Positions 3,001 to 19,144 of a stretch of DNA of 46,538 nt are shown one piece after another. How positions within the stretch are numbered: position 1 is the first letter of the stretch; each line of letters opens with the position of its first letter. The notes beneath the pieces were generated by a model. That model ran no database searches, had not been told where the DNA came from, and saw only the letters and a program-made list of their open reading frames with translations. The translations under genes and the position numbers were made by a program. The stretch is from NCBI GenBank assembly GCA_903930345.1, contig CAIYYI010000435.1, positions 1 to 46,538 on the forward strand. The letters run 5' to 3'. The DNA comes from an uncultured Verrucomicrobiota bacterium (GTDB lineage: Bacteria; Verrucomicrobiota; Verrucomicrobiia; Limisphaerales; CAIYYI01).

Positions 3001-6000
3001 TCGTCAGCGATTTTGTGGAGCTTTTCAACCCTGATTCGGTGCCCGTGGATATCAGCGGCTGTTTCCTCACCGATAATGTGATCGGGAATCCGACGCGGAA
3101 TCCATTGCCGCCTTGCAGTTATATGGCCCCCAATGGGCATCTGGCCCTTTACGCGGACGGAGCGCCGGAGTTGGGAGCGGACCACCTCAATTTCAAGCTG
3201 GGATATGATTTGGGCGGCATTGGCCTGATGACGCCTGCATTGGAGTTGATTGATGAGGTCATGTACGCAGTTCAATTCCGTGATGTCTCCCAGGGGCGCA
3301 GCCCGGATGGGAGCCCCAATCTGATGTTTTTTGACCGGCCCACACCGGGAGCACCCAACCAGGCCCAGACCGTGGTGATCACTCCCTTGCTCTCCACCCT
3401 GGTCCCCTTCAACCAGACCTGGAAATACCAGATCAGCGGCACCGATTTGGGGACGGCCTGGTCGGCCACCAATTACGTGGATGCCTCCTGGCAAACTGGT
3501 GCAGGCATCTTCTATTTCAGCTCCAACAACACCACGCCAGCGTTGCCGGTGGGCACGACGATCACCTTTACGCGTCCCGTGCCCCAAAACACTTTCTATT
3601 TCCGCACCACGTTTAACTTCTCAGGCGATCCGGCCACGACCACATTGGCTTTGAGCCATTACATTGATGATGGATGTGTGGTCTATGTCAACGGCGTGGA
3701 GTACTTCCGGTTTAACCTCGGCGCGGGTACGAATGTGATTTATTCCACCCGTGCCACCAGTGCCAGCGGTGACGGGGTCATCACGGGCCCGGTTTCGCTT
3801 TCGGTAACCAATCTCCGGCAGGGCGTGAACCATCTGGCGGTGGAAGTGCATCAAACCAGCGCCAACAGCAGTGACATGGCGTTTGGGCTGGCGCTCGACG
3901 CGCAACGCTTTGTCACCAACTTCCTCAGTGTGCCCGTGATGATCAGCGAGGTGCTGGCCCGCAATCAAACCCATACGAATGCCAATGGCAAACCCATTGA
4001 CTGGGTGGAGCTATTCAATCCTTCGACCAACGTGGTGGATCTCTCCGGCATGAGCATCACGGATGAAACCGGGCTTCCCCGCAAATGGGTTTTCCCCTCC
4101 GGCGCCACCATTGTCCCCGGTGGATATTACGTGGTTGATTTTGATGATTCCTCGCCCTATTCCCCGGTAAACGCCGGGTACGAGATCAGCGGCGATGGCG
4201 GGGCGCTGTATTTGTTCCACCGCCCGGATGAGGGTGGCGGGTTGTTGGACAGCATCACTTACGGCTTGCAGGCTGGCGATCTCTCGGTTGGCAAGGTGTC
4301 CGGGGTTTGGCGCCTGTGCCAGCCCACCCGGTCCGGTGCGAATCAGCCGGTTGCTCTGGGGAGTCCCGGCTTGCTGCGCATCAATGAATGGATGCCGGCC
4401 CCTGACTCCGGCGATGACTGGTTTGAGTTGCATAATCCGGGGAGTTTCCCGGTGGAGATCAGCGGCCTGTATTTGACCGACAACTTGAATGACCCGTATA
4501 AGAACCGCATTCCCGCGCTTTCCTTCATTGGTTCCGGGCCCAATGGTTACGCTCTTTTCCAGGCGGATAGCGCCCCCAGCAAGGGGGCCAACCATGTCAA
4601 TTTCAAGTTGAGCAATGTGGCGGAGGCCATCGCGCTGTTTGGGGCCAACACCGTTGTGCCACAAGTCATTGATTACATCATCTACACCGTCACCAGCCTT
4701 GGCATATCCCAGGGGCGTTTGCCGGATGGTTCCACCAATATGGTGACGTTCAGCCAGACGGCCTCACCGGGGGATCCCAACTATTGGATGCTATCCACAA
4801 TCGTGATTAACGAGGTGCTGACGCATACGGACAGTCCGCTGGAGGACGCCATTGAACTGCGGAATCTGACCAGCGGGGACATTTCGATCGGGGGCTGGTA
4901 TCTCAGCAATTCGCGTCGGGATCTCAAGCGGTATCTCATACCGGCGGGAACCATTCTGCCTGCCAATGGCTACCTGACTTTTTACGAATACCAATTCAAT
5001 TCATCCGCCGGTGGTGGCACGCCCTTCACTTTGAACGCCGCCCAGGGCGACCAGGTCTTTTTATCCGCTGCGGATGGGATGGGCAATGTGATTGGCTATC
5101 GCGCCCAGGCCGAATTTGGCCCCGCTGCCAATGGGATCTCAATTGGCTACTTTGAAACCAGCACCGGCAGCGACCTGGCGGCGATGTCCCGGCGCACCTT
5201 TGGCCAGGATGCTCCCGCTTCACTCGCCCAGTTTCGCATGGGACGCGGCGCCCCCAACAGCTATCCGCAGGTGGGGCCGCTGGTGGTCAGCGAGATCATG
5301 TATCATCCGCCGGATATCGGCACCAACGATGACACCCTCCATGAATTCATTGAGCTTCACAATGTTTCCACCAGCGCGGTGCCGCTTTATGACCCCGCGC
5401 ATCCGACCAATTCCTGGCGGCTGCGTGATGCGGTGACCTATGTCTTTCCGCCTGGTTTCACGATGGCACCGCAGGAATATGTGCTGGTGGTGTCCTTTGA
5501 TCCCGCCGTCAATCTGGTTGAACTCGCTGATTTCAAGGAGCGTTATGGCGTGCCTGCAAACGTGGTCATTCTGGGACCCTTCGAGGGCAAGCTGGACAAC
5601 AATGGGGAGCCGGTGGAGCTGGTGCGACCCGATGCCCCACAAATGCCGCCGCATCCCGATGCGGGGTTGGTGCCGGAGTTGAAAGTGGACAAGGTTAAAT
5701 ATCATGATTCCGCACCCTGGCCGGTATTGGCTGATGGCAACACCAATGGGATCGGCCTTTCCTTGCAGCGCAGCGGGCTGACCAACTATGGAAACGACGC
5801 GGTCAACTGGGTGGCCGCCGAGCCGAGTGCTGGCCGACCCAATTCGCCTGCGGTCCTCGCAGCCCCCGTGGTGGTGACCCAACCCCAAAGCATCGGCGTG
5901 TTGGCGGGGAGCAACGTGACGTTCCAGGTTGCCGTGACCGGGGCGGCTCCGCTTGGCTATTTTTGGAAATTCAATGGGGCGATACTTCCGGGTGAAACCA

Positions 6001-9000
6001 ACAGTACGCTGGTGGTGGGCAATGCCCAGTCCCGCAATTCCGGCCGGTATTCCGTGGTTGCTTTCAACCCGGCGGCCGCAAACACCAGCAGCGAGGCCCA
6101 ACTGGTGGTTTCCACGCCGCCACAGATTGCCGATCAACCACAGGATCAGATGGTCGTTGCGGGGCGTGATGCGTCTTTCGTGGTCACTGCCGGCGGCAGT
6201 GCGTTGAGTTATCAGTGGCGGTTCAATGGTCAACCGCTGCTGTTTGGCACCAATTCACTGCTGGTGCTCACCAATGTGCAGACGGTGCAGGAGGGTCTTT
6301 ACGATGTGCTCGTCACCAACCTGTTGGGTGTTGTGTACAGTCGCACGGCCGCGTTGTTGGTCATCACGCCGCCCATGCTGGTTTCAAACCCGCACCCGGT
6401 GGATGTGCTGATCGGGAGCAATGCCCATTTTGCCGTCGGTGTGGATGGCCGGGGATTGAGTTACCAGTGGTTTTTCAACGGCGGCGCACTTCCGGATCAA
6501 AACAGTGCCACGCTGGATATTTTGGATGTGCAGGCTGGTGATGCGGGCCCATATCAGGTGATCGTGAGCAACTTGGCCGGATCCGTCACCAGCCTGGTCG
6601 CAACCCTGAGTGTCATTGTCCCTCCCCTGGTTGACTTGGCGGTGTCTCCCGGTGTGGTGACGGAAGGTGGTGCTTCATCCCCCTCCGTCTCCTTCACCCG
6701 TTCAGCAGGCAGCACGGGGAACACGCAGCCCCTGACGGTTTATCTCTCCATTGCCGGTTCGGCGGTCAGCGGAGTTGATTATGCCGCTTTGCCGGCGTTC
6801 GTCACCATTCCTGCGGGTGTCTCCAGCACCAACCTGCTCGTGCCCCTCCTCAACGATGCCACTCCTGAAGGGGATGAGACTCTGACCATCAGCCTGCTGG
6901 AAGCTGTGAGCTACCGCCCGGGCGCCACCGCCATGGCGCGAATCACGATTCTGGACGACGACAACCAACGGCCGGTGATCACTTTCATGACTCCCACCAA
7001 TTCGCAGTTCTTTGCCTTCACGCCCACCAACATCCTGGTGAGTGCGTCGGCATCGGATACGGACGGCAGCATCGCCCTGGTCCAGTTTTATGATGACACC
7101 AATTTCATCGGCCAGGCAGTGAGCGTGCCTTACCAGGTGTTGCTGACCAATGCTACCTATGGGACCAACTGGCTTTATGCCCAGGCGCGGGACAATCTGG
7201 GTGCCGTTGTCAATGCCACCCCGATTGCCATCGTGGTAAACCATCGGCCTGAAGTGCGCATTGTGAATCCGCTCCCTAACCAGACGTTTGCCTCAACCCT
7301 TGCCGTGGCGGTGGATGCCAGTGCCAGCGACCTGGATGGTTCTATCACCACGGTTTGGCTCTACGATCAAACCAACCTGATGGCCGTTTTTCTGTCGCCG
7401 CCGTACTCCACAACCTTGACAAACCTCGGTGCGGGATCTCACCAATTACTGGTGGTGGCGCAGGATGACCATGGCATGATCTCCACTTCCGCCCCGGTCA
7501 ACATCACGGTGAATCTGCCGGGCTTTTTTGATAATTTTGAACCCGACTACAATCGCAACCTCTGGACTTTTGGCGATACTGCCGCCGGGGCAGTGGAAGC
7601 CAGTGATTATGGCGGCTATGTTTCCCCATCGCATTCCCTGTGGTTCGGCGGCAATGGAACCCGCTCAGCGGCGACCACCAACCTGAACACCCTTCAGGGT
7701 GGCCTGCTATCGTTCTACATTCGGTTGGCCTATGGCACCTACTTAAGCACTTGGGAGTCCACCGATTCCGGCCAGGGTGTCGTGCTGGAGTATTCTATCA
7801 ATGGCGGCACGAGTTGGACCCAGATCCAGGCATACGATTACGGTTTTGCGGCCGGCGATTGGAGCTATCAGGAAATGGCCATCCCCACCATCGCGCAAAC
7901 CACCAATTCGATTTTCCGCTGGCGCCAGGTCGGACATGACGGCACGGGCTGTGACCACTGGGCGATTGATGATGTGCAGATTGTGGTGGGCCCCGTGCCA
8001 CCGCGCATTGTGGTTGCCCCGGCTGATCAATCGATCCTGGTGGGAGCGGCGGTCAGCTTTTCTGTTACCGCCAGCGGTTCCGCTCCGCTTACCTACCAAT
8101 GGCGCTTCAACGGTTCGAATATCCTGGGAGCCACTTCCTCCGCGTACTCCATCACGAGCGCTGCCTCCAACCACATCGGTGTTTACAGTGTGGTGGTTTC
8201 CAATGCCGTGGGCAGTGCCACCAGCCGGGATGCCTCGCTCAACCTGGTCACGGAGTTGACGCTGGGGGTGGCCTTGGATGCGGACAACCTGGTGTGGGCG
8301 ACCTCTGGCAACGGCTTGTGGATACCGCAAACCACCAACACCTGCAACGGCATCGCGGCTCAAAGCGGTGTGATCGGGCATAACCAGAATTCCCTTCTTA
8401 GCACGGTGGTGTCGGGCCCGGGCACCCTGTCCTTCTGGTGGCGTGTTTCCTCCGAATCGTGCTGTGATTACCTTGAATTCGCCATCGATAATGTGGTGCA
8501 GGCCAGCATTGCCGGCGATCAGAAATGGTCGCAGCGTTCCTATCGGATCGAGACGGGCAATAAAACCATTTCCTGGAATTACCGCAAAGACGGCAGTGTG
8601 GTCACCGGTTCCGACCGCGCCTGGCTCGATCTGGTCAGTTTTGTGCCCGATGGTCCCACCCCGCCAACCATCTCCCAACAACCCACCAACGCGATCGTTT
8701 TGCTGGGTGGCTCAGCCATCTTCAACGTGGGCGTCAACGGCACCATGCCCTTCAGTTACCAGTGGCTGCGCAACGGCACCAATGCGGTGGGAATCAGCGC
8801 TTCCACACTGACCATCAACAACGTGGCCAGCAACCACCTGGGTGTTTACACGGTGGTGATCACCAACGCTTACGGCAGCGTGACCAGTGCGCCTGTCAGC
8901 CTCACCATTGGCTCTCCACTGCAACTGCTCCAGGCTCCGGTCTCTCAAACGGTGATGTCAGGCGCCAATGTGACCTTTGAAGTGTTGGTCAGCGGTTCCC

Positions 9001-11501
9001 AACCCATTCAATATGTCTGGTACTACAACGGCTCGGAACTAACCGGCTACACCAGCAACAAGCTCGTTTTCGATTCGGTCACTCTTTACTACACCGGCAC
9101 GTTTGCGGTGACGGTGATCAACCCGGTCAGCACCCTTTCGATCACCAATATTCAATTGACGGTGCTTTCGCCGCCCTTCATCAACGCCCAACCCAGAAAC
9201 CGCGAGTTTCTCAAAGGCATGCCGGCCGTCATGGAAATCACTGTGGATGGGAGTCAGCCATATCGTATCCAGTGGCGGAAAAACAAGATCAACCAGCTCA
9301 GCGGCAACAACCCCACGTACAATATCGCCAGCGCCGTCACCAATCATTCCGGCAATTTTGACGTGGTGATCACCAACGCCTATGGTTCCATTACCAGCTC
9401 GGTGGCCCGGTTGACGGTCATCGAACCGGATACCAATTCCTTCGGAATCGCCAGCCTCACCACGAATGCCCCCACTGTGGTCGATAGCTATGCGGTGGTG
9501 AATTATAACTATTACGATGGAATTGCCACTTCGGGTAAACGGGTGTTCATCAATGGTTACAATGGTGCCGCCGGATTCAATGTGACGGATTTGGGTGATC
9601 CCTCCATGGTGCCCAGCACCACCAGTGCTTATCGTTACGGATTGGTTTCCGATTTGCGCAGCCAAAAGGCGTATGTGTTTGCCAACAACTCAACCATGAT
9701 CGGTTCCAGTGGCGGAACGGTGAATTCGCTCATTGAATTGGATCCGCAGACGGGTGCGCTGACCACCAATGTCATCCGGTTTTCCCAGAGCTTTTATGCG
9801 GATTACTCGGCAGGATTTTTCTCGGGTAGCCGGCAGGTGGTGGTTCACAGCCAGGGCACGGTTTACTCGATTGCCCTCCCTTCAGGCAAGGTCAGCACTA
9901 TTGGGACCATGGCCACCTACCTGCCGTACAATTATGACAGCAGTTGGTATTATAGCTGGGGCATTGCCGAAAACTGGGGCACCAATACCTACCTGACGTT
10001 TGTCCGTGATCAGCAATCGATCATCCGCATGCGCGTATCCGACAGCGACACCACGGTGGTGGGCACTTACAACAATCTCGGGTACATGGGGAATATTGGC
10101 GTATCGATGACTCGCGGCCGTTGGTATTTCCGCCACCGTTATAATTCCCAGTTCGCCAATTTCACCGAGACCCTTGGGTCAGCCAGCGCCTCGTTCGTGT
10201 ACCTGATGGCACCGGATGATCCGGTGCAGATTGTTGAACCTCCGGCGAACACCAAGGTGACCGCCGGTGGCAACACCACGCTGCGCGTCCAGGCTGTGGG
10301 GGGCGCACCGCTCACCTACCAGTGGTACAAGGATGGCAACCTGATGCCCGGTTATGTGGGTTCACAGCTCAATCTCTACAACTGTCGTTTGAGCGCGGCC
10401 GGCCTTTATCAGGTGGTGGTTGCCAATAGCGTGAGCGCAGTCACCAGCACCGTGGGCCGCTTGACGATCGATTACGGCATTGGTTCCTATGTCACCATGC
10501 CCTTGATGCCTATGACCAACGTGTGGCGCTATAATACCAATGTGATCTACAACGGCACCAACAGCCCCAACTGGGTGGCTCCGTTGTTTAATGACTCCGC
10601 TTGGCCGTCCGGTCCGGCCCTGCTGTACAACGAGGACAACGCGGCGGTATCACCACGCCTGACCCCATTGTTACTTGGGCGTACAACGTACTATTTCCGG
10701 ACGTCCTTCGTGGTGAACACCAATCTCTCTGACGCGACCTTGGAGTTCAACACCATGGTGGACGATGGCGCCATTATCTATCTGAATGGAAAAGAGATGG
10801 GGCGCATTCGTTTCACCACAGGCACGGCCGCCAATTATGGGAATTACGCCAACGCCTCCGCCCCGGGCAGCGGCGGCGACGCGACGCTGGAGACCTGGTT
10901 GTGGTCGAGCGCCAACCTGCTGGTCGGCACCAATGTGCTGGCCGTTGAGGTTCACCAGAACAGTTCCAGCAGCACCGATATCTGCTGGGGGATGTCGCTC
11001 AACGCCCGAATTCCGGTTTACAATCAGGCACCAAACATAACCAACCAACCGGTTAGCGTTCGCTTACCAGTTGGGGCCAACGCCACCTTCCAAGTGGATG
11101 CCAGTGGCACGGCACCGTTCAGTTACCAGTGGCAGATGAATGGGGAAAATATTGTCGGTGCGCAGTACCGCACCCTGGTCGTGACCAATGTCAACCGGGC
11201 CAATATCGGCTATTACATGGTCACGGTTCGCAACAGCTTTGATGTGGCGCAGAGCATTCCAGCGGTTTTGGCTTTGGATTTGCCGGCCCTCTTTGCTCCG
11301 CCGGTTCGCTCCTCCGACCAGGCTTTGGAGTTCCAATTCCAACTGAACCCGGGGGCGGTGTACTCGCTCGAATCAAGCACCAACCTGGCCATCTGGACGG
11401 AAGTGATGCGTTGGACCAATGCCAGCAGCGTCATGTCCTTCACCGATGACGCCATCTACCAGAACGGGCAGCGGTTTTTGCGCGTGCGCGAAATCAGGTA
11501 G
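3..11501 (+). CDS. Giant secreted CotH / lamin-tail / Ig-like multidomain protein (3' part, 5'-truncated)
   Basis: The reading frame is open to the left edge, so the true start lies upstream; about 3,830 residues are visible. Domains in order, by nucleotide: a CotH-like region (15-800) with the signature LYRG and YDVDSLFG near 430-491; a right-handed beta-helix-like stretch (1040-2210); six lamin-tail-like domains, each opening with (I/V/L)xE(I/V/W)L or INEW and carrying (V/I)ELFNP or similar, near 2533, 2962, 3939, 4374, 4800 and 5280; jelly-roll-like modules at 3410-3900 and 10510-11010; about nine Ig-like modules with YQW and GxY motifs between 5870 and 11270; a Calx-beta-like domain (6640-6960); two Big_9-like modules (6970-7510). 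The last 70 residues carry the SLESSTNLAIW motif frequent at verrucomicrobial C-termini. CotH proteins are atypical kinases of spore coats or cellulosomes; the rest looks adhesive or structural. It is probably secreted or surface-exposed. The substrate is unknown. Confidence 0.9.
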   Translation, partial: NARAVQMRFNNVNLAQTASSMWGLYSHNEELGGDFAQAHFPEDPNGNVYRGVRPDGGQGYANFSGTNYFRDIYLKMNNGSADDFSDLFELIQVLNNTPDARYTAEVSRVLDVDMAMLYFAVNAIADNNETSLSNGSGDDFALYRGNKDRRIKLMSYDVDSLFGFQNSSATASIWRAINSPAGTTTINRFLTWPDFAPKYYATLKRLCETTFSSDQFNPLVDQYLGSWIDASRIIQLKGYMTNRIVSIMSQIPQRLTAVSPLAAQNGFPRSTVASTSLTGVGNVIRTHAVRVNGVSATWTAWQGTWSANNLTLNPGLNRLLVEALDEMGRVFESTTVDVWYDTGTTTPITSSITADATWTASGGPYLVSGEIYVQGGATLTIAPGTTVYFNAGARLSVGGRLLANGTASQRIRFTRPPAAAATDSWNGLNFQETGVDVSRLSYVDIDYTGAGTPDKAIYVFESTLLADHLTFSGTTHGLIELENGSLHVRDSVFPNIIGKEHIHGRVLPANGFLIIENNLFGSTTGLNDIIDFTGGQRPGAIMQVISNVFTAAADDVLDLDGTDAHIEGNVFMNVRRANGSTVDTSSAISGGKDGTLTSRITIVRNLFYNCDHAILAKEGNYYEIVNNTMLQMNESAINFDEPGRRGEGVTPGLGAYVAGNIIWNTSTNFENVYVNHPTFGTTQITFTNNLTSASDWASNQVGNIRVNPMLNSYGPFTSAEEARAGFALRAGSPAVATGPNGLDRGGLVAGGASITGEPPPATAQNHARLTVGGPGMTHYRYRVNNSAWSAQEFSVADPLVLTNLASGSYGVAVIGKNSAGVWQAETNATLSQTWTVGGIPARVQLSEILARNASAVSVAGKYPDLIELFNPGTDMVSLQGMSLTDDPSKPRKYVFREGLKINAGQYLTLVADNGDSITDIYVRFRLDDSGDALYLYDQNTNLIDSVVFGLQLPDYSLSRAENGTWALSRPTFGTANQVVGVGDPGRLKINEWLASAERLFVSDFVELFNPDSVPVDISGCFLTDNVIGNPTRNPLPPCSYMAPNGHLALYADGAPELGADHLNFKLGYDLGGIGLMTPALELIDEVMYAVQFRDVSQGRSPDGSPNLMFFDRPTPGAPNQAQTVVITPLLSTLVPFNQTWKYQISGTDLGTAWSATNYVDASWQTGAGIFYFSSNNTTPALPVGTTITFTRPVPQNTFYFRTTFNFSGDPATTTLALSHYIDDGCVVYVNGVEYFRFNLGAGTNVIYSTRATSASGDGVITGPVSLSVTNLRQGVNHLAVEVHQTSANSSDMAFGLALDAQRFVTNFLSVPVMISEVLARNQTHTNANGKPIDWVELFNPSTNVVDLSGMSITDETGLPRKWVFPSGATIVPGGYYVVDFDDSSPYSPVNAGYEISGDGGALYLFHRPDEGGGLLDSITYGLQAGDLSVGKVSGVWRLCQPTRSGANQPVALGSPGLLRINEWMPAPDSGDDWFELHNPGSFPVEISGLYLTDNLNDPYKNRIPALSFIGSGPNGYALFQADSAPSKGANHVNFKLSNVAEAIALFGANTVVPQVIDYIIYTVTSLGISQGRLPDGSTNMVTFSQTASPGDPNYWMLSTIVINEVLTHTDSPLEDAIELRNLTSGDISIGGWYLSNSRRDLKRYLIPAGTILPANGYLTFYEYQFNSSAGGGTPFTLNAAQGDQVFLSAADGMGNVIGYRAQAEFGPAANGISIGYFETSTGSDLAAMSRRTFGQDAPASLAQFRMGRGAPNSYPQVGPLVVSEIMYHPPDIGTNDDTLHEFIELHNVSTSAVPLYDPAHPTNSWRLRDAVTYVFPPGFTMAPQEYVLVVSFDPAVNLVELADFKERYGVPANVVILGPFEGKLDNNGEPVELVRPDAPQMPPHPDAGLVPELKVDKVKYHDSAPWPVLADGNTNGIGLSLQRSGLTNYGNDAVNWVAAEPSAGRPNSPAVLAAPVVVTQPQSIGVLAGSNVTFQVAVTGAAPLGYFWKFNGAILPGETNSTLVVGNAQSRNSGRYSVVAFNPAAANTSSEAQLVVSTPPQIADQPQDQMVVAGRDASFVVTAGGSALSYQWRFNGQPLLFGTNSLLVLTNVQTVQEGLYDVLVTNLLGVVYSRTAALLVITPPMLVSNPHPVDVLIGSNAHFAVGVDGRGLSYQWFFNGGALPDQNSATLDILDVQAGDAGPYQVIVSNLAGSVTSLVATLSVIVPPLVDLAVSPGVVTEGGASSPSVSFTRSAGSTGNTQPLTVYLSIAGSAVSGVDYAALPAFVTIPAGVSSTNLLVPLLNDATPEGDETLTISLLEAVSYRPGATAMARITILDDDNQRPVITFMTPTNSQFFAFTPTNILVSASASDTDGSIALVQFYDDTNFIGQAVSVPYQVLLTNATYGTNWLYAQARDNLGAVVNATPIAIVVNHRPEVRIVNPLPNQTFASTLAVAVDASASDLDGSITTVWLYDQTNLMAVFLSPPYSTTLTNLGAGSHQLLVVAQDDHGMISTSAPVNITVNLPGFFDNFEPDYNRNLWTFGDTAAGAVEASDYGGYVSPSHSLWFGGNGTRSAATTNLNTLQGGLLSFYIRLAYGTYLSTWESTDSGQGVVLEYSINGGTSWTQIQAYDYGFAAGDWSYQEMAIPTIAQTTNSIFRWRQVGHDGTGCDHWAIDDVQIVVGPVPPRIVVAPADQSILVGAAVSFSVTASGSAPLTYQWRFNGSNILGATSSAYSITSAASNHIGVYSVVVSNAVGSATSRDASLNLVTELTLGVALDADNLVWATSGNGLWIPQTTNTCNGIAAQSGVIGHNQNSLLSTVVSGPGTLSFWWRVSSESCCDYLEFAIDNVVQASIAGDQKWSQRSYRIETGNKTISWNYRKDGSVVTGSDRAWLDLVSFVPDGPTPPTISQQPTNAIVLLGGSAIFNVGVNGTMPFSYQWLRNGTNAVGISASTLTINNVASNHLGVYTVVITNAYGSVTSAPVSLTIGSPLQLLQAPVSQTVMSGANVTFEVLVSGSQPIQYVWYYNGSELTGYTSNKLVFDSVTLYYTGTFAVTVINPVSTLSITNIQLTVLSPPFINAQPRNREFLKGMPAVMEITVDGSQPYRIQWRKNKINQLSGNNPTYNIASAVTNHSGNFDVVITNAYGSITSSVARLTVIEPDTNSFGIASLTTNAPTVVDSYAVVNYNYYDGIATSGKRVFINGYNGAAGFNVTDLGDPSMVPSTTSAYRYGLVSDLRSQKAYVFANNSTMIGSSGGTVNSLIELDPQTGALTTNVIRFSQSFYADYSAGFFSGSRQVVVHSQGTVYSIALPSGKVSTIGTMATYLPYNYDSSWYYSWGIAENWGTNTYLTFVRDQQSIIRMRVSDSDTTVVGTYNNLGYMGNIGVSMTRGRWYFRHRYNSQFANFTETLGSASASFVYLMAPDDPVQIVEPPANTKVTAGGNTTLRVQAVGGAPLTYQWYKDGNLMPGYVGSQLNLYNCRLSAAGLYQVVVANSVSAVTSTVGRLTIDYGIGSYVTMPLMPMTNVWRYNTNVIYNGTNSPNWVAPLFNDSAWPSGPALLYNEDNAAVSPRLTPLLLGRTTYYFRTSFVVNTNLSDATLEFNTMVDDGAIIYLNGKEMGRIRFTTGTAANYGNYANASAPGSGGDATLETWLWSSANLLVGTNVLAVEVHQNSSSSTDICWGMSLNARIPVYNQAPNITNQPVSVRLPVGANATFQVDASGTAPFSYQWQMNGENIVGAQYRTLVVTNVNRANIGYYMVTVRNSFDVAQSIPAVLALDLPALFAPPVRSSDQALEFQFQLNPGAVYSLESSTNLAIWTEVMRWTNASSVMSFTDDAIYQNGQRFLRVREIR

Positions 11502-11578: not shown

Positions 11579-13177
11579 TTGTCCCGGTACAACTTCGGCG
11601 TGCAAAAAGTATCGCCCAAGTCTGTCCCTTCTGCGGCCCCGGAGGAAACGGGCCTGCGCCGTTTCTATTATCTCACGGCGGGAATCTGCGGCGCCGCCAT
11701 CCTGATTGTCGAAATTCTGGGAGCCAAAATGCTCGCTCCCTTTTTTGGCACCTCCCACTTCGTGTGGACGGCCCAGATTGCCGTGACCATGGTGAGTCTG
11801 GCGGTCGGGTATTATGCGGGCGGCTGGTTGGTGGATCGCACTCCGCGTGTCGGCCGCCTGTACGCCTGCATCCTGGTGGCGTCCTGCTATTTGTGTCTGA
11901 CGGTGCCGCTGTGTCCGAAGATTTCCTTCTGGTGCCTGGATTTTAACCTGGCGGTGGGTGCGGTGCTGGCCTCGCTCTTTCTGTTCTTTCCACCGCTCAG
12001 CCTGCTGGCCATGACCGGCCCATTCCTGATCCGTATTATGACCTCGTCCGTGTCTGGCGTGGGTGGCCAGGTGGGGCGGCTCTCCGCCATCAGCACGGCG
12101 GGCAGCGTGCTGGGCACGGTACTGATCGGCTACTGCCTGATCCCGTTTCTGCCAAATTCCATGACCATGTATCTGACGGCGATGGTGCTTATGGTGCTGG
12201 CTTCCGCGCATTTCCTTTTCTGGGGCCGTTCCCGGGCCGGCTTGGCGGGACTGGTGGCATGCGTCTTTGGCGGCCTGGCGGTTGGGTGGTATGGGGTGCA
12301 TCAGGACGCCCAATCCAGCCTTCCCGGCATGGAGGAGTTGGAGCGTCGCAATTCCAATTTCGGTCTCATGCAGGTTTTCCAGGCCACCAATGAATTGAAG
12401 CGCATTTATCGCAACGATTATCTGGTCCAAAACGGATATGACCCGGGGCGCAAACAGAGCATTCACAGCTTCACTTATCTGCTGCATGGTCTCACACGGG
12501 CCTACACCTCCAATTTGAATGAGGTGCTGTGCATCGGGCTGGGGGTGGGGATCGTCCCCATGCAGCTCGCCCGTGAGGGGGTCAAGGTGGAGGTGGTGGA
12601 GATTAATCCCACCGTGGTGCCGATCGCCGAGAAATACTTTGATTTGGAACCTGCCAAACTCACGATCCACATTCAGGACGGCCGGCATTTCTTAAACCGG
12701 TGCAAGAAGCAGTATGACGCGGTGGTGCTGGATGCTTTCCTGGGGGATTCCTCCCCCTCCCACCTGATGACCCGGGAGGCGTTTGCCGCGATCAAGCGGG
12801 TGCTCAAACCGAAAGGGACGCTCGTGATCAACAGCTTTGGCGATCTGGAGCCGGGTCGGGATTACTACACGGCTTCGCTCTCCAAAACGCTCAAGGCCGT
12901 TTTCCCGGGGGTCCGCATTCACAGTCGCGGCTCGGGCAATATTTTCTTCGTCGCCTCCCAGCGGGCGGTTCTGGAACCGTGGACAGGCATTGATCTTGAG
13001 TCGGTCCACCCGGACGTCAGTTGGCAGGTGCAGATGAGTTTCCGTGGGCTTGTGGAAACCAACCCGCAGCAGGGGCGGGTGTTGACGGATGACTACAACC
13101 CGGTCGATTTCTATGACGCCGCCAACCGCGAAAAGATGCGGCGTTATCTGGCGGCGGATATGCATCCCCAAAACTGA
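11579..13177 (+). CDS. Membrane-anchored spermidine synthase-like protein
   Basis: The N-terminal half (residues about 28-240) has roughly six hydrophobic segments resembling a cut-down transporter. The C-terminal half (about 255-530) is a spermidine-synthase-type Rossmann fold with GLGVG (320-324) for the nucleotide cofactor, Glu341 in VVEINP, QDGRHFL at 367-371 and Asp385 in VVLDAF where the catalytic aspartate of SpeE lies. Fused transmembrane/spermidine-synthase proteins are widespread, but their reaction is mostly unproven and may not be polyamine synthesis. There is no adenosylmethionine decarboxylase nearby. The start used is TTG at 11579; a GTG at 11600 is an equally plausible start. 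It ends 3 bp from the convergent TIM-barrel gene. Confidence 0.88.
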   Translation: MSRYNFGVQKVSPKSVPSAAPEETGLRRFYYLTAGICGAAILIVEILGAKMLAPFFGTSHFVWTAQIAVTMVSLAVGYYAGGWLVDRTPRVGRLYACILVASCYLCLTVPLCPKISFWCLDFNLAVGAVLASLFLFFPPLSLLAMTGPFLIRIMTSSVSGVGGQVGRLSAISTAGSVLGTVLIGYCLIPFLPNSMTMYLTAMVLMVLASAHFLFWGRSRAGLAGLVACVFGGLAVGWYGVHQDAQSSLPGMEELERRNSNFGLMQVFQATNELKRIYRNDYLVQNGYDPGRKQSIHSFTYLLHGLTRAYTSNLNEVLCIGLGVGIVPMQLAREGVKVEVVEINPTVVPIAEKYFDLEPAKLTIHIQDGRHFLNRCKKQYDAVVLDAFLGDSSPSHLMTREAFAAIKRVLKPKGTLVINSFGDLEPGRDYYTASLSKTLKAVFPGVRIHSRGSGNIFFVASQRAVLEPWTGIDLESVHPDVSWQVQMSFRGLVETNPQQGRVLTDDYNPVDFYDAANREKMRRYLAADMHPQN

Positions 13178-13180
13178 CGC

Positions 13181-14128
13181 CTATTGGACGCCGAAGGCCT
13201 GCCGCAAAACCTTCAGGCTTTTGGCCACGCCGGAATCCGCGCTCTCCTTGCCTTCGAATTCCAGGGAGACAAATCCCTGGTAGCCAGCTTTGCCCAGGAT
13301 GCCCGCGATGCGGGGGTAATCTAGGTCCAGCGTGTACCACTCTCCACCGCCATAATACGTTTTGGCCTGCACAAACACGGCCCGGGGCGCGATTTGCTCC
13401 AACTGGTCGTACGGGTTCTCCAGGAAATTTCCGGTGTCCAGCAGCGCCCCCAGCCAGGGGGAGGGGAGCGCATCCAGGATTTTGAGGAGCCCCTTGGCCG
13501 TGCGTGCCAATCCCCAATGGTTCTCAAGCCCCAGCACCACCCCGTACTCCTCGGCCTTTTTCAGGCACTGCTGAATGCCGTCAATGCACCACTTGTAACC
13601 TTCCTCCTCGGTGCGCCCGGCGGGCACATTTTCAATGCCGCGCTGGGCCATCAGGGTGTCGAAATCAACCGTGTTCCAGCGTCCGGTGTTGATGCGGATG
13701 CAGGGGATGCCCAGCTCGTGCGCGATGGCAAGGCATTTGATGGTGTGGTCCACGTGCAGTTTGAGATCTTCCGGCTTGGCCTGGACGAAGCTTTGATGGG
13801 TGGAGAGGCAGATCAGGCTCATGCCGTTGACCAACGCGTGCCGTTTGAGCTGCCGCAAATAGGCGAGGTGCTCCGCCGTCAGCGGTTCCTTTTCCGGGAT
13901 ATCCATCTGTCGATGCAGGATGTCCACGCCTGAAAGATTCAGTTGGGCGGCCTTGGTGATGACCTCTGCCACTGTGACCTTGGGTTCGCGGAAGTGCCAA
14001 TAGGAATAGGTGGACACACCCAGTTTCACCCGGTGCCTGACGGTGGCCGGGGCGGCCAGGCTGAGGGCGGGGGCGGCGGCCAGACTGCCCAGGCCTGCCA
14101 ACAGAAAATTGCGTCGGCTTGAATCCAT
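13181..14128 (-). CDS. Tat-exported sugar phosphate isomerase/epimerase-like TIM barrel protein
   Basis: This 315-residue protein begins with a twin-arginine signal (SRRNFLLAG, Arg5-Arg6) followed by a hydrophobic, alanine-rich stretch ending near AAPA. The mature part has the xylose-isomerase-like TIM barrel pattern: KLGVSTYSYW, SGVDILH, CLSTHQSFV, IRINTG, LGLENHWGL (a metal-ligand-type Glu/His), ALLDTGNF and VSLEFEGKE. This superfamily isomerises or epimerises sugars and cyclitols with a divalent metal. The substrate cannot be told. Tat export suggests a periplasmic enzyme that folds with its metal in the cytoplasm. It is the last gene of the nfeD-flotillin-carbonic anhydrase cluster, 7 bp after the carbonic anhydrase. 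Confidence 0.88.
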   Translation of the reverse strand: MDSSRRNFLLAGLGSLAAAPALSLAAPATVRHRVKLGVSTYSYWHFREPKVTVAEVITKAAQLNLSGVDILHRQMDIPEKEPLTAEHLAYLRQLKRHALVNGMSLICLSTHQSFVQAKPEDLKLHVDHTIKCLAIAHELGIPCIRINTGRWNTVDFDTLMAQRGIENVPAGRTEEEGYKWCIDGIQQCLKKAEEYGVVLGLENHWGLARTAKGLLKILDALPSPWLGALLDTGNFLENPYDQLEQIAPRAVFVQAKTYYGGGEWYTLDLDYPRIAGILGKAGYQGFVSLEFEGKESADSGVAKSLKVLRQAFGVQ

Positions 14129-14135
14129 GGTTGCT

Positions 14136-15167
14136 TCAGCGTTTGTCTTTAAAGTGGCTGTGACCGGTCATGAACGGTGGCGGTTTGATCCTTGCGGCGG
14201 CTTTCGCCAGTTCTTCCACGGTGCGCCATTCGGTGCTCCCCTCCACCTGGATCGGGGTTTTGGCGTCCACCCGTTCCTCCGCCAGCCATTGGATGAGTTT
14301 GGCCCCGGGGATGGGTCCGTAGGTGCGCTGATCCGTGCCGATGATCTTGTAGAGTTGCTGCTTCAGGATGCCCCTGGCCAAATCAAGGGCCACTTCTTTG
14401 ACCAGCTCAGCCGGCGTGTCCGCCCGGGGATGGGTGGCGGCCATTTCGTGCATCTTTTCCAGCATGTGCTCGGCCGTGGTGATGGTTTCACCAATCTGGG
14501 TTTCGGCCACCGTCACGGTGCCCATTTTAAAATCCTCCAGCCTGGCCATCATGCTTTGGGCTTTGACCGCCGCGTTCTGCACGGCGGAACTGTACTGGGA
14601 GGTATTGGCCTCCAGGGTCTGGTAACCGTTCACCAGCCACTCCAGGCGACCGGTCTGGGTGTCCACCAGAAACCCATGCACCGGAATCTGGGATCCGATC
14701 AATGAGCTGTTGCGCACATGTTCGCAGGCGGTCATCACGTTTTGCCGCTCGCTGGCAAAGAGCCCGAAATACTCCACCAGGTTCTCCGGCAGCTTTTGCC
14801 GCTCGACCCCCAGTCGTTTCATGGCATCGGTGAACGTCAGAGTCGATATCTTGCCCACCTGACAGTCTGTGTGCCCCACGATGGCAATCTCGCGCCCGCC
14901 CTTGATGGCGCACGCCATGGCCAGCGAGCGCATGGTGCTGCTCAAGGTGCCGGTAATGATGTTGCCCGCATTCCTGAGCCAGATGATTTTCTCCTCCGGC
15001 AAGGCCAGCGTCTGGGGGATCAGTTGGTTCAGTCGCGGATCGATGCAGGTGAGCACGGCGACCGGCAGGGCTCCCTGGTATTCGTCGGTCCGCACGGCGG
15101 CAGTGGCGTCCCCCTGGAGCCGCCGCTGGCTGGCTTCGAGAATGGCTTCAAACAGGCGCATGGCCAT
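14136..15167 (-). CDS. Beta-class carbonic anhydrase with C-terminal GYF_2-like domain
   Basis: The N-terminal about 200 residues form a beta-carbonic anhydrase: the zinc motifs are Cys41-x-Asp43-x-Arg45 (CIDPR) and His99-x-x-Cys102 (HTDC), with RNAGN at 65-69. It should interconvert CO2 and bicarbonate. From about residue 277 to 325 there is a GYF_2-like domain: TYGPIPGAKLIQWL, then a conserved 'T..EW' turn. GYF_2 domains are protein-interaction modules common in bacterial membrane proteins. At 343 residues it is much longer than a typical beta-CA (about 200-230). No signal peptide is visible, so it is probably cytoplasmic. The start ATG at 15167 follows AAGG nine bases upstream. It lies 78 bp downstream of the flotillin gene and 7 bp before the TIM-barrel gene, so co-transcription is likely. 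Confidence 0.88.
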   Translation of the reverse strand: MAMRLFEAILEASQRRLQGDATAAVRTDEYQGALPVAVLTCIDPRLNQLIPQTLALPEEKIIWLRNAGNIITGTLSSTMRSLAMACAIKGGREIAIVGHTDCQVGKISTLTFTDAMKRLGVERQKLPENLVEYFGLFASERQNVMTACEHVRNSSLIGSQIPVHGFLVDTQTGRLEWLVNGYQTLEANTSQYSSAVQNAAVKAQSMMARLEDFKMGTVTVAETQIGETITTAEHMLEKMHEMAATHPRADTPAELVKEVALDLARGILKQQLYKIIGTDQRTYGPIPGAKLIQWLAEERVDAKTPIQVEGSTEWRTVEELAKAAARIKPPPFMTGHSHFKDKR

Positions 15168-15245
15168 GGGTTACCTTGGTGGGGTTGGCGTTGCAAAGAA
15201 CATTGGGTGCCTTTTCCATGGCCGTACGCGCTCATCAAACCGCGC

Positions 15246-16811
15246 CTATGCCGCCGGGTCGGCATCCTGTTTGCCCAGCGCTTTCCGCAGTGCGGGCACC
15301 TGTTCCAGCAGCTTTTCAAACTTCAACCCGGTCAGGCTTTCCACCACCGGAGGGAGCTGGCTGATGATCTGGGTGATGTCCCCCGTCAGTTTGCTGGCGC
15401 CGCCGCCGTTGCCCGGGCCGCTGTTGATGATGACAATCTTCTCGGTCTTGCTCAGCGGTTCGCTGATCTTGGCGGCCACCTCGGGCAGCACGCGCAGGAC
15501 CATTTCGATCACTGCCGCCTCATTGTAATTGCGGAAGGATTCGGCCTTCAGGCGCATGGCTTCGGCCTGGGCCTTGCCTTGTGCCTCGATGACTTCCGCC
15601 TGGGCCAGACCGGTCGCCCTGGAAACCTCGGCGCTCGCCAGACCCTGGGCCCGGTTGGCATCGGCCGTGGCCACACCGGTAATGCGGGTGATTTCCGCGT
15701 TGGCCTGTCCCGTTGCCTTGGTGGCGTTGGCGGCACCAGTGGCCTCGGCTTCCAACTGGAACTTCTTGGCGTTCGCCAGGGTTTCCACCTTGTAACGTTC
15801 CGCATCGGCCGGCTTTTGCACATTGGCTTGCAGTTCGCGTTCCTTGCGCCGGATTTCCTGCTCCTGCAACTCAATCTGCTTCTGCTTTTCAATGATGGTG
15901 ACCTGGATTTCCTCCGCTTTCACCAACTGGCCGGTCTTGTACTTCTGCAAATCATAGGCGAGGTCGGATTCCGCTTTCCGCTGATTCACCGAGGCCTGGT
16001 ACTGGGCCACGTTCATCTGGTAATCCCGTTGGGATTCGGCAATTTTGGCGTCAGCCGCATACTTGGCCTCCTGGCCGGCCTGCTGGGCCTGGGAGGATTT
16101 GATCATGGCATCGCGATCCGCCTCCGCCTGGGCGATCTGCGCGTCGCGTTTCACCTGGGCGATGCGCGGTTTGCCCAACGCTTCCAGATAGCCCTGGTTG
16201 TCCCGGATGTCGCGAATGGTGAAGCTGACGATGCCCAGACCCATGTTGGCCATGTCCCCGGCGGCCACTTCCTGCACCTTGGCCGCAAAGGCGTCCCGAT
16301 TCTGGTAGATCTCCTCCACGCTCAACGTGCCCAGGATGGCCCGCAGATGGCCTTCCATGGTCTGCATGGCGATGTTCTTGATCTCCTCCCGTCCTTTGCT
16401 CAGGAACTGCTCGGCGGCGGTGGCAATGGAAATGTCATCCCCCTTCACCTTGATCTGGGCCACGCCATCCACTTTCACCGGCACACCCTTGCTGGTGTAA
16501 ACCTCCGGGGTCTGGACATCGATGGTCAGCAATTCGAGGGACAGAATGTCAATTTTCTCCAGCACCGGCAGGACGAATGTGCCGCCGCCCTTGACAATGC
16601 GGAAACCCCGGACGCGGAGGGTGCCATCCGGATCCTGGTATTTCTGTTTCATGCCGGAAACCACCAGCACTTCGTTGGGGCCGACCTTGGTGTAGCGGCT
16701 GAGCACCGCTTTCAGCAGCATCACGATCGTTGCCACACCTACCACCACCACGATCGCGATCATCGCGGTGGAGGAGCTTACATTCTGAGCCAGGAGCAGG
16801 GTTGAGTTCAT
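15246..16811 (-). CDS. Flotillin-family SPFH-domain membrane protein
   Basis: This 521-residue protein has an N-terminal transmembrane segment (about 16-35), an SPFH/band-7 domain (about 40-240; VGPNEVLVVSG, then VKVDGVAQIKVKGDD) and a long Ala/Glu/Gln-rich coiled coil (about 240-430) with repeated 'A.G.A.AE' units. That is the architecture of bacterial flotillins (FloT/YuaG, YqiK), which scaffold functional membrane microdomains. The gene is 17 bp downstream of an NfeD-like gene, the classic partner of flotillins (yuaF-yuaG in Bacillus, yqiJ-yqiK in E. coli). The downstream carbonic anhydrase is an unusual companion. Confidence 0.93.
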   Translation of the reverse strand: MNSTLLLAQNVSSSTAMIAIVVVVGVATIVMLLKAVLSRYTKVGPNEVLVVSGMKQKYQDPDGTLRVRGFRIVKGGGTFVLPVLEKIDILSLELLTIDVQTPEVYTSKGVPVKVDGVAQIKVKGDDISIATAAEQFLSKGREEIKNIAMQTMEGHLRAILGTLSVEEIYQNRDAFAAKVQEVAAGDMANMGLGIVSFTIRDIRDNQGYLEALGKPRIAQVKRDAQIAQAEADRDAMIKSSQAQQAGQEAKYAADAKIAESQRDYQMNVAQYQASVNQRKAESDLAYDLQKYKTGQLVKAEEIQVTIIEKQKQIELQEQEIRRKERELQANVQKPADAERYKVETLANAKKFQLEAEATGAANATKATGQANAEITRITGVATADANRAQGLASAEVSRATGLAQAEVIEAQGKAQAEAMRLKAESFRNYNEAAVIEMVLRVLPEVAAKISEPLSKTEKIVIINSGPGNGGGASKLTGDITQIISQLPPVVESLTGLKFEKLLEQVPALRKALGKQDADPAA

Positions 16812-16828
16812 GGGTTGCTTTGCTTGAA

Positions 16829-17386
16829 TTAAAGTTGACGGACGAAAAACTGGGTGCCGGTCACCCGCGTGATTTTAACCGATCGCCCCGTTGGCACAGC
16901 CCGGCCGGTCTCCTCGCGTGCTGGAGCGGTGTAGCGGCTGCCCGCCTGGACATAGGCGATTTCGCCCACGCCGTTCTCAGGGATGTTCGACAACACGGTG
17001 GCTTCCATGCCGGCCAGCGTTGCGATTTTGGATTCGCTGGAGCTTTGCGTGCGTTTGAACAGGGCGCGCAGCATGGTGAGTATCCCACTCGCCACCAGGA
17101 ACGCTCCCACCACCGACAACGGAGCGCTCATCAGGGTCGATTGGGTGGCGGGGATCTGCTTGAAGATCACTCCCAGACCTCCGAAAGCGGTGATGAAGGT
17201 GGCAATGATGGTGGGACTCAAGGCCGACACACCCGGACCATCCGAGCTGTCCGCGCCTGCCTCGGCATGTCCGCCGCTGCCGACCACATCGCCATCATGG
17301 CCGCCAAAAGTATGGCCCATGACAGAGCTGATCACAGTGAAGAGCACTCCCACACCCAAACAAATCAAATAGACCGCAGTATCCAT
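16829..17386 (-). CDS. NfeD-like membrane protein, flotillin partner
   Basis: This 185-residue protein has an N-terminal transmembrane segment (residues about 4-25), a Gly/Asp/His-rich linker, two central hydrophobic segments (about 52-72 and 86-106), and a C-terminal OB-fold-like domain (about 120-185) with the NfeD-type pattern LAGMEATVLSNI, GEIAY and VKITRV. Short NfeD proteins of this shape pair with flotillins. It is the promoter-proximal gene of the minus-strand cluster. The assignment rests on topology, the C-terminal pattern and the adjacent flotillin. No convincing Shine-Dalgarno is seen. Confidence 0.8.
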   Translation of the reverse strand: MDTAVYLICLGVGVLFTVISSVMGHTFGGHDGDVVGSGGHAEAGADSSDGPGVSALSPTIIATFITAFGGLGVIFKQIPATQSTLMSAPLSVVGAFLVASGILTMLRALFKRTQSSSESKIATLAGMEATVLSNIPENGVGEIAYVQAGSRYTAPAREETGRAVPTGRSVKITRVTGTQFFVRQL

Positions 17387-17587
17387 AGTTTGCTGGTAAC
17401 CGGTTTCACTCTAGCCGGAGCCGCCGCCCGGGCGCAAGCTGTAAACCACCAATTCGCGAGGGCGGGCATTCACTGCCAACCCGTGTCAAACCGGACGCTG
17501 GATAGATTAGCGGTTGCCGCGTGCGAATGCATTTACAATAAGCCGCGGTTTTTGTAACGCCGCGCCTTTTGGGGATGGCGAGCAAGC

Positions 17588-17601
17588 CTACCGAAAGGTA
17601 G
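17588..17601 (+). other. Small hairpin with GAAA tetraloop in the leader of the TolC-like gene
   Basis: CTACC-GAAA-GGTAG forms a perfect 5-bp stem closed by a GNRA tetraloop, 58 bp before the ATG at 17660. It lies downstream of a possible -10 box (TACAAT at 17534-17539, no convincing -35), so it could be in the 5' leader RNA. The hairpin is short and may be chance. Confidence 0.3.
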
Positions 17602-17659
17602 AATTGATGCATACGAGGATTTGACGAGCGCACTTTTTTACGGCAATCTGCCTTCCGCA

Positions 17660-19144
17660 ATGCAGATCAAAAAACAAGTTTGGCTGGCTTTTTCTCTCGC
17701 CGCTGCTGCTGCGGTGGCGCAAACGGATACACGTCCCATCCGCGAAATCTCGCTTGAAGAGTGCGTGGAAATGGCGCTCAAGAACAATTTCACCCTGCAG
17801 ATCGACCGTTTTGAACCCAAGATCTCGGAATGGAATGTGAATCAGGCCAAGGCGGCCTATGACCCCAACCTGAGTTTTAACTTCAGCAGCAGTTTCAATG
17901 CCTCTCCGAGCAAGATCAGTCAGGTTATTCCGGTGATGATTCCGGGCGCTAAAAACACTGCGGAAACGCTGGGGGCAAGCATTGGTGGTGTGGCCCCCAA
18001 TGGCCTCCAGTGGAGCGTGCCTTTCGACTTTACCCGCCGTCATGGTGACAACTTTCCGTTGACCAAACAGTACGAAGGGGTGGGGGGCATTGATCTGCGC
18101 CAACCATTGTTGAAGGGCGGGGGAATGAACCAGACAAGGTACCAGCTCCTGGTGAGCAAAAAAGGGGTCAAAATCAGTGAGTTTGTGCTGCGGCAGACCA
18201 TGACGGATGTCGTGGCCAAGGTGCAACAGGCTTATTATGAACTCATTGCCGCCCGGGAAAATGTCAAAGTCCAGGAAAAGGCCGTGAGCTTGGCCGAGCG
18301 TCTCCTGAAGGATAATCAAGCCAAAGTCCGGGCGGGCACGTTGCCGCCTTTGGACGAAAAACAGGCCGAATCCGAGGTGGCCACCAAGCGGGCCGATTTG
18401 TTGGATGCCCGGCAATTGCAGGTGGGGGCGGAAAACGTTCTCAAGAATCTGATTGTTTCCGATCTGGCCAATTGGCGCATGGTGAACCTGACCCCCAGCC
18501 AATCGCTGCTGGCGGTTCCGTTCAGCTTTGATTTGCAGGAAAGCTGGCGCATCGGGTTGCTCTCACGGTCCGACCTCATGCAGTTCAAGCTGGATGTGGA
18601 GCGCCGCGAGCTTGACGTCAACTACTATAAGAACTTGACCAAACCTGACCTGAGCCTTATCGGCCGCTATGGTCACAACGCCGCCGGAACAGGGGCTGAG
18701 GACGTGTTGCGGGGTGTGCGGGAAGACAATTTCACCTACCACACCTGGGGTGCGGAATTGAGTTTCCCCATCGGCAATCGGGCGGCCAAGGCGCGCATGT
18801 TCCAGGGCAAGGATGCCCGTTTGCAGGCGGAGTTGAGGGTCAAACAATTGGAACAGAACATCATGGTTGAAATTGACAATGCCCTGAGCAAGGTGCGCAG
18901 CAGTTTTGACCGCATTGACGCTACCCGCCAGGCCCGCGTGTATGCGGAAGCCGCGTTGGATGCCGAACAAAAGAAGCTGGAGAATGGCAAGAGCACCAGC
19001 TACACCGTTTTGCAGATTCAGCGGGATTTGACCAATGCAAAATCCGCTGAGATCAAGTCACTTACAGATTATAACAAGGCTGTCTCACAGAGTTTTCAAT
19101 CGGAGGGCACCACCTTGGAACGGTCCAATATCAAGTTCCAATAG
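17660..19144 (+). CDS. TolC-family outer membrane efflux protein
   Basis: This 494-residue protein starts with a Sec signal peptide (MQIKKQVWLAFSLAAAAA, cut near AVAQT). The body has the two-fold TolC layout: long coiled-coil helices (for example residues about 190-270 and 390-480) separated by beta segments, with SLEECVEMALKNN, a common opening of the family. TolC proteins form the outer-membrane channel of RND, ABC or MFS export systems. The ATG at 17660 is preferred to an upstream TTG at 17621 because it starts exactly at the signal peptide. No adaptor or pump is adjacent, so its partner is encoded elsewhere. A strong terminator follows. Confidence 0.92.
   Translation: MQIKKQVWLAFSLAAAAAVAQTDTRPIREISLEECVEMALKNNFTLQIDRFEPKISEWNVNQAKAAYDPNLSFNFSSSFNASPSKISQVIPVMIPGAKNTAETLGASIGGVAPNGLQWSVPFDFTRRHGDNFPLTKQYEGVGGIDLRQPLLKGGGMNQTRYQLLVSKKGVKISEFVLRQTMTDVVAKVQQAYYELIAARENVKVQEKAVSLAERLLKDNQAKVRAGTLPPLDEKQAESEVATKRADLLDARQLQVGAENVLKNLIVSDLANWRMVNLTPSQSLLAVPFSFDLQESWRIGLLSRSDLMQFKLDVERRELDVNYYKNLTKPDLSLIGRYGHNAAGTGAEDVLRGVREDNFTYHTWGAELSFPIGNRAAKARMFQGKDARLQAELRVKQLEQNIMVEIDNALSKVRSSFDRIDATRQARVYAEAALDAEQKKLENGKSTSYTVLQIQRDLTNAKSAEIKSLTDYNKAVSQSFQSEGTTLERSNIKFQ

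Follow-up and report, generated by a model that had tools for sequence, protein, structure and literature searches.

The window, the whole 46,538-nucleotide stretch of DNA analysed here, carries on its minus strand a gene for a β-carbonic anhydrase (CA) with a C-terminal GYF_2 domain, in the order NfeD-like protein, flotillin, CA. The features are listed in Table 1. The original prediction had placed the CA open reading frame at these coordinates and had named five active-site residues. Both statements were confirmed by the reading frame and its translation, which give the minus strand as the coding strand, and the five residues align with the C-x-D-x-R and H-x-x-C motifs of PDB entry 1g5c. 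In β-CAs, the Cys-His-Cys set provides the zinc ligands and Asp-Arg forms a dyad. Most relatives begin at Met3 of the window protein, so the start may lie two codons later; an AAGG located by eye six bases 5′ of the first ATG favours the first ATG.

Table 1. Features of the CA gene and of its neighbours in the window.
Feature	Coordinates	Strand	Basis and remarks
β-Carbonic anhydrase with C-terminal GYF_2 domain	14136..15167	-	343 aa plus stop; ORF, translation, Pro_CA and GYF_2 matches
CA core, residues 1–184 (Cys41, Asp43, Arg45, His99, Cys102)	14616..15167	-	Pro_CA match 37–174; 1g5c alignment 35–177; site conservation
Variable linker, residues 185–272, with short conserved stretch at 213–227 (FKMGTVTVAETQIGE)	14352..14615	-	Pattern in relatives
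GYF_2 domain, residues 273–324	14196..14351	-	Pfam match 278–321; orthologue-based profile match 273–324
C-terminal proline-containing basic tail (ARIKPPPFMTGHSHFKDKR) and stop	14136..14195	-	Translation; tail pattern in homologues
Flotillin	15246..16811	-	Band_7 5.7e-32, Flot 2.9e-6; adjoins the CA on its 5′ side, 78 bp gap
NfeD-like protein	16829..17386	-	First in the set, 17 bp gap to flotillin; NfeD PF01957 3.1e-4
Xylose-isomerase-like TIM-barrel gene	13181..14128	-	AP_endonuc_2 1.8e-28; just 3′ of the CA gene

The CA core was identified by Pfam (Pro_CA, PF00484; 37 bits against a curated cut-off of 25.7), and the closest solved relative of the protein is 1g5c (phmmer, E = 1.5e-20, residues 35–177). 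A family profile of 37 homologues (A1) was built, from which L069 was excluded for its broken N-terminal part, as it was from the tree and the tail count. All 37 members match Pro_CA at E up to 0.01, and the profile matches 1g5c at E = 1.4e-30. An alignment of 38 homologues shows Asp43, Arg45 and His99 without variation; the two cysteines are each lost once, Cys41 in L069 and Cys102 in L064. L069 is a second, damaged CA copy of genome G308 in which the N-terminal part, and Cys41 with it, is gone; the flotillin-adjoining copy, L041, keeps this part. In the L064 gene (6018–6893) Cys102 is replaced by Gly with flotillin still adjoining, and its product is perhaps a non-catalytic member. No NCBIfam entry was matched above its cut-off by the whole protein or by its C-terminal part. 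A full-length AlphaFold model, built from three sequences, has a mean pLDDT of 40, and no claim on the fold of the CA core is based on it.

The C-terminal module had been predicted to resemble GYF_2 (PF14237), with a profile search and a structure prediction proposed as checks. In the whole protein, residues 278–321 match profile positions 5–48 of 50 (E = 4.9e-4, 20.3 bits), and a search with 73 C-terminal residues gave E = 4e-5. The resemblance was detected, but the shorter query at 23.7 bits also stays under the curated cut-off of 25.8. On its own score the assignment is suggestive; it becomes firm through the orthologues. A GYF_2 match at E up to 0.01 is present in 12 of 37 homologues (25 are without a match), and of seven scored singly, three exceed the cut-off (L036, 30.6; L037, 26.7; L057, 26.3 bits) and four fall under it (L065, 24.5; L039, 23.0; L040, 21.1; L066, 18.2 bits). 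A profile of the 11 other GYF_2-bearing orthologues matches the window protein at E = 1.4e-24. The homology is real, and the fusion of a β-CA with GYF_2 is, by these profile comparisons, genuine and common to orthologues.

Classical GYF domains are marked by a GYF tripeptide and bind PPG-type ligands. The tripeptide is absent from the ten aligned GYF_2 domains (A3), in which nine columns are invariant, including Tyr12, Gly13, Pro14, Trp23 and Trp43. The classical family, PF02213, has no Pfam match in the window CA; L040 scores 23.7 bits against its cut-off of 25.7. Modelled by itself with AlphaFold, the domain gives moderate quality (mean pLDDT 65). The best structural matches to this model are mostly GYF domains, and the matches are weak: Foldseek returned the SMY2 GYF domain (E = 0.48), a TOC-TIC chain (0.51) and the GYF domain of GltJ (0.55), none of them significant. 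In VIA the six best rows are GYF-domain proteins (Z = 4.3–3.0), with TIC-complex chains tying at 3.0; row 4bws_C is named CD2BP2, and the GIGYF rows are presumably GYF domains. The fold comparisons are compatible with a GYF assignment and weak by themselves.

On a tree of CA cores, the presence of GYF_2 in 12 rows requires six changes, against a mean of 10.4 after shuffling. The GYF_2-bearing members are clustered and do not form one group, and the deep forks of the tree are unsupported. With L069 omitted, the tree is compatible with a single origin. The domain is also found elsewhere in these genomes. There are seven GYF_2 matches in the window genome, that of the CA included, and at least one outside the CA in every one of the 35 CA genomes of the class (see below). 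An ORF following flotillin in L085 had appeared GYF_2-like by eye; it matched no Pfam family at E up to 0.05 and was unlisted by the orthologue profile at E up to 0.1, and it was discarded as a candidate.

The C-terminal extension is longer than GYF_2, which forms only an optional part of it. Where present, the domain lies between the conserved linker stretch and the tail. The linker stretch, which in relatives often reads F..GEMKFPE.KIGE, was recognized as a pattern in 21 of 37 homologues, and its Gly226 is retained in 36 of 38. In 33 of 37 homologues the C-terminus is formed by a proline-rich stretch and, after it, basic residues (e.g. PLPPPMRPK), the exceptions being L038, L060, L064 and L070; the pattern was defined after inspection of the tails, and 500 shuffles of the tails gave a mean of 8.9 and a maximum of 15 of 37. 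Over the last 20 residues, 35 of 37 members carry a net charge of at least +3 (mean +4.6). This proline-rich basic tail, not GYF_2, is the commoner C-terminal feature of the family. In L060 and L064, where the CA is without the tail pattern, the flotillin has a proline-rich basic end, and the element has perhaps moved between the two proteins. The flotillins of L074 and L087 also have proline-rich ends.

Gene order was compared at 38 CA loci, comprising 35 loci (with flanks of about 6 kb where the contig allowed), two further assemblies (one from Limisphaerales and one from Verrucomicrobia subdivision 3) and the window. A same-strand flotillin is located nearby in 33 of the 38, and in 30 the CA lies directly 3′ of flotillin, no more than 679 bp away. 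The gap is larger in L047 (1575 bp) and L053 (2857 bp), and the order in L058 is CA–NfeD–flotillin. Flotillin was not found in the stretches of L038, L040, L065, L067 and L069. For the first four (genomes G345, G380, G153 and G106) the NfeD–flotillin pair is on another contig; the fifth is the damaged copy of G308, whose other copy stands behind flotillin. In L034 (2152–3526) the flotillin match runs across two reading frames, probably owing to an assembly frameshift.

The window NfeD-like protein scores 21.3 bits against PF01957, under the cut-off of 29.1, and its relatives adjoin flotillin. Its position beside flotillin, on the same strand and separated by 17 bp, is the arrangement by which an NfeD–flotillin operon is recognized. 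NfeD, flotillin and CA are probably one operon. No promoter-like sites were found in 13100–17700 (shuffles gave 1.1), a count that provides no evidence of co-transcription. The TIM-barrel gene has relatives at only three of the 37 other CA loci (L037, L066 and L069, in the last about 3.7 kb away) and is probably an occasional neighbour and no core member of the set. A conserved proline-containing flotillin motif, QLPPV.ESLT, was considered as a ligand of GYF_2 and rejected as non-discriminating because flotillins without the CA also have it.

Within the class, the CA was found in 35 of 384 genomes (E at most 8.8e-54, the next β-CA in the search being clearly different at E = 7.3e-15) and the flotillin in 46 (E at most 1e-80). 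All 35 CA genomes are among the 46. Fisher's exact test gave 2.4e-40 for genomes, treated as independent; at the level of genera (172, of which 33 have the flotillin and 26 the CA, all 26 within the 33) it gave 9.5e-25, and both values are uncorrected for kinship. A within-family test was made on seven CA-bearing families with listed genomes both with and without flotillin, the strata being typed by hand; for the listed genomes, the chance of every CA falling in a flotillin genome is 4e-6. The four genomes in which the CA is unlinked retain both genes. Flotillin is also kept without the CA, as in 11 of the 46 genomes (in G038 the locus is at a contig edge). The 11 stretches around the NfeD–flotillin genes of these genomes yielded no CA, although three of them, L073, L079 and L082, reach only a short way 3′. 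GYF_2 is not needed for the link with flotillin, since 25 of 37 homologues are unmatched.

A search of genome contigs with the CA gave two loci. With core residues 1–174 as the query, three genomes of a phylum sample of 387 matched at 1e-20, namely that of the window and two of the same class; the listed rows of this sample are all of the class, and the number of the 387 that lie outside it is not given. A plasmid search gave 18 records, which in the ten listed are below 60% identity with none covering 80% of the query. The window genome encodes another β-CA (Pro_CA, 176.5 bits), so the flotillin-linked enzyme is a second, divergent one. In G380, where the flotillin-type CA is unlinked, another β-CA (128 bits; L085, 1156–1983, minus strand) is encoded on the strand opposite to NfeD, at a distance of about 2 kb from the NfeD start.

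The sequences show the domain composition and the intact catalytic residues of this CA, and its conserved gene order and co-occurrence with flotillin show a genetic link between the two. We infer from these sequence data, with a probability of about 0.5, that a Cab-type β-CA with an intact site is a third component of the NfeD/flotillin set and works at the flotillin/NfeD platform, with its C-terminal extension as the binding part. NfeD and flotillin would form a membrane microdomain platform, and the CA would act at or near its cytosolic face, a cytosolic location being itself predicted. There it would interconvert CO2 and bicarbonate, which might serve local pH, bicarbonate supply or transport. 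Binding would be provided by the extension, with its short linker motif, the tail found in most members and the GYF_2 domain of about one third of them. The most likely ligand of GYF_2 would be a proline-rich segment, belonging either to a partner or to an adjacent CA subunit; for the proline-rich basic tail, acidic lipid or a proline-binding domain could be the target. That GYF_2 serves the CA as a docking module, as had been proposed from the window alone, is plausible. The gene set suggests that membrane rafts in these bacteria carry a carbonic anhydrase of their own. More tentatively, and with odds somewhat against it, the CA may belong to the flotillin/NfeD raft of the class as a third subunit dedicated to it, held there by an exchangeable GYF_2, linker motif and tail, so that the microdomains house CO2/bicarbonate chemistry.

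The CA could instead be a soluble housekeeping enzyme that merely shares a cluster with NfeD and flotillin, its C-terminal additions being neutral or aiding solubility. The variation of GYF_2 and linker in presence and length fits this view, as do the four genomes in which the CA is unlinked and the 11 of 35 CA genomes without a further Pro_CA match (a count of β-CAs only, in assemblies that are possibly incomplete), where the CA may also be the general one. A housekeeping role is nevertheless doubtful: 24 of the 35 CA genomes, that of the window included, have another Pro_CA match, the CA is confined to flotillin genomes throughout, within families too, and the link survives the different gene order of L058. 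A further possibility is that this β-CA fold works at the membrane as a hydrolase of a different small substrate, for example CS2 or COS. The family profile does match a CS2 hydrolase (3ten, 3.7e-15) and a COS hydrolase (3vqj, 3.2e-7), but the β-CA 1g5c is much closer and the window protein keeps all five CA site residues, which makes a change of substrate very improbable.

Two further alternatives concern the partner. The GYF_2 domain might link CA subunits into larger assemblies by binding the tails of adjacent ones, with no outside partner, in keeping with the presence of GYF_2 and the tail pattern in one protein in 11 of 12 GYF_2-bearing members (L038 being the exception). Most members without GYF_2 also keep the tail, however, and the GYF_2 matches outside the CA in all CA genomes allow partners in trans; with the PPG-type preference of classical GYF domains, these points render pure self-assembly unlikely. 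Alternatively, the CA might be a dedicated client stabilized by a flotillin/NfeD clamp rather than an enzyme serving the platform. NfeD is said to contact flotillin through its cytosolic domain in Staphylococcus aureus, where the FloA–NfeD pair stabilizes unfolded client proteins, according to an extract of PMC11222466; a client devoted to the platform could belong to the same gene set. The analysis gave no sign that the CA is unusually unstable, though, and 11 of the 46 flotillin genomes are without it, which leaves the client role with a very small chance.

Entry 1g5c, which we take to be Cab from a methanogen, has the site motifs of the window CA. Its chain of 170 residues matches the core alone, whereas the window protein has about 160 more residues, including GYF_2, and adjoins flotillin. 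The bacterial GYF domain of GltJ (PDB entry 7z3c) was, with that of SMY2, one of the three best Foldseek matches, each of them weak; the window domain differs in sitting on a metabolic enzyme, in having no GYF tripeptide and in scoring under the Pfam cut-off. To our knowledge, the system of the carboxysomal β-CA CcaA includes neither GYF_2 nor flotillin. It is a precedent for a CA tethered to a scaffold via a C-terminal tail, the scaffold there being a carboxysome protein: the C-terminal tails of CcaA interact with the γ-CAL domains of CcmM, as stated in an extract of PMC8580825. A shared operon of an NfeD homologue and flotillin (SPFH2/NfeD2) is described, with yuaF–yuaG as an example, in sections of PMC2636767, in which yuaI, of an acetyltransferase family, is an extra operon gene in Bacillus subtilis only. 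NfeD and flotillin are common to operons of this type and the window set, in which a β-CA is added as the third gene; the term 'carbonic anhydrase' occurs zero times in the main text of PMC2636767. A flotillin-linked rhodopsin is known from aquatic, streamlined genomes (an extract of PMC10308929), and in the window set a CA stands in place of the rhodopsin.

In the open-licence papers searched, neither a CA linked to flotillin nor a CA–GYF_2 fusion was found to be reported. The CA is a known enzyme in a new variant, with a conserved gene context nowhere described in that literature. How bacterial flotillin microdomains work, and what they do, was termed unclear in 2024 in an extract of PMC11222466. 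A fixed enzymatic partner, if real, would make microdomain function testable via one reaction at one place, and the link to a CA would provide a biochemical handle on GYF_2, a domain abundant in these genomes.

Two other genes of the window were annotated on the plus strand. The first (15–11501) encodes a protein of 3828 residues with a CotH domain, six lamin-tail domains, nine Ig_3 domains and other Ig-like stretches, as well as a reelin-like subrepeat and a Calx-beta stretch. The second (11579–13177) has a spermidine-synthase-like domain at residues 306–443 and a long N-terminal part that appears hydrophobic by eye.
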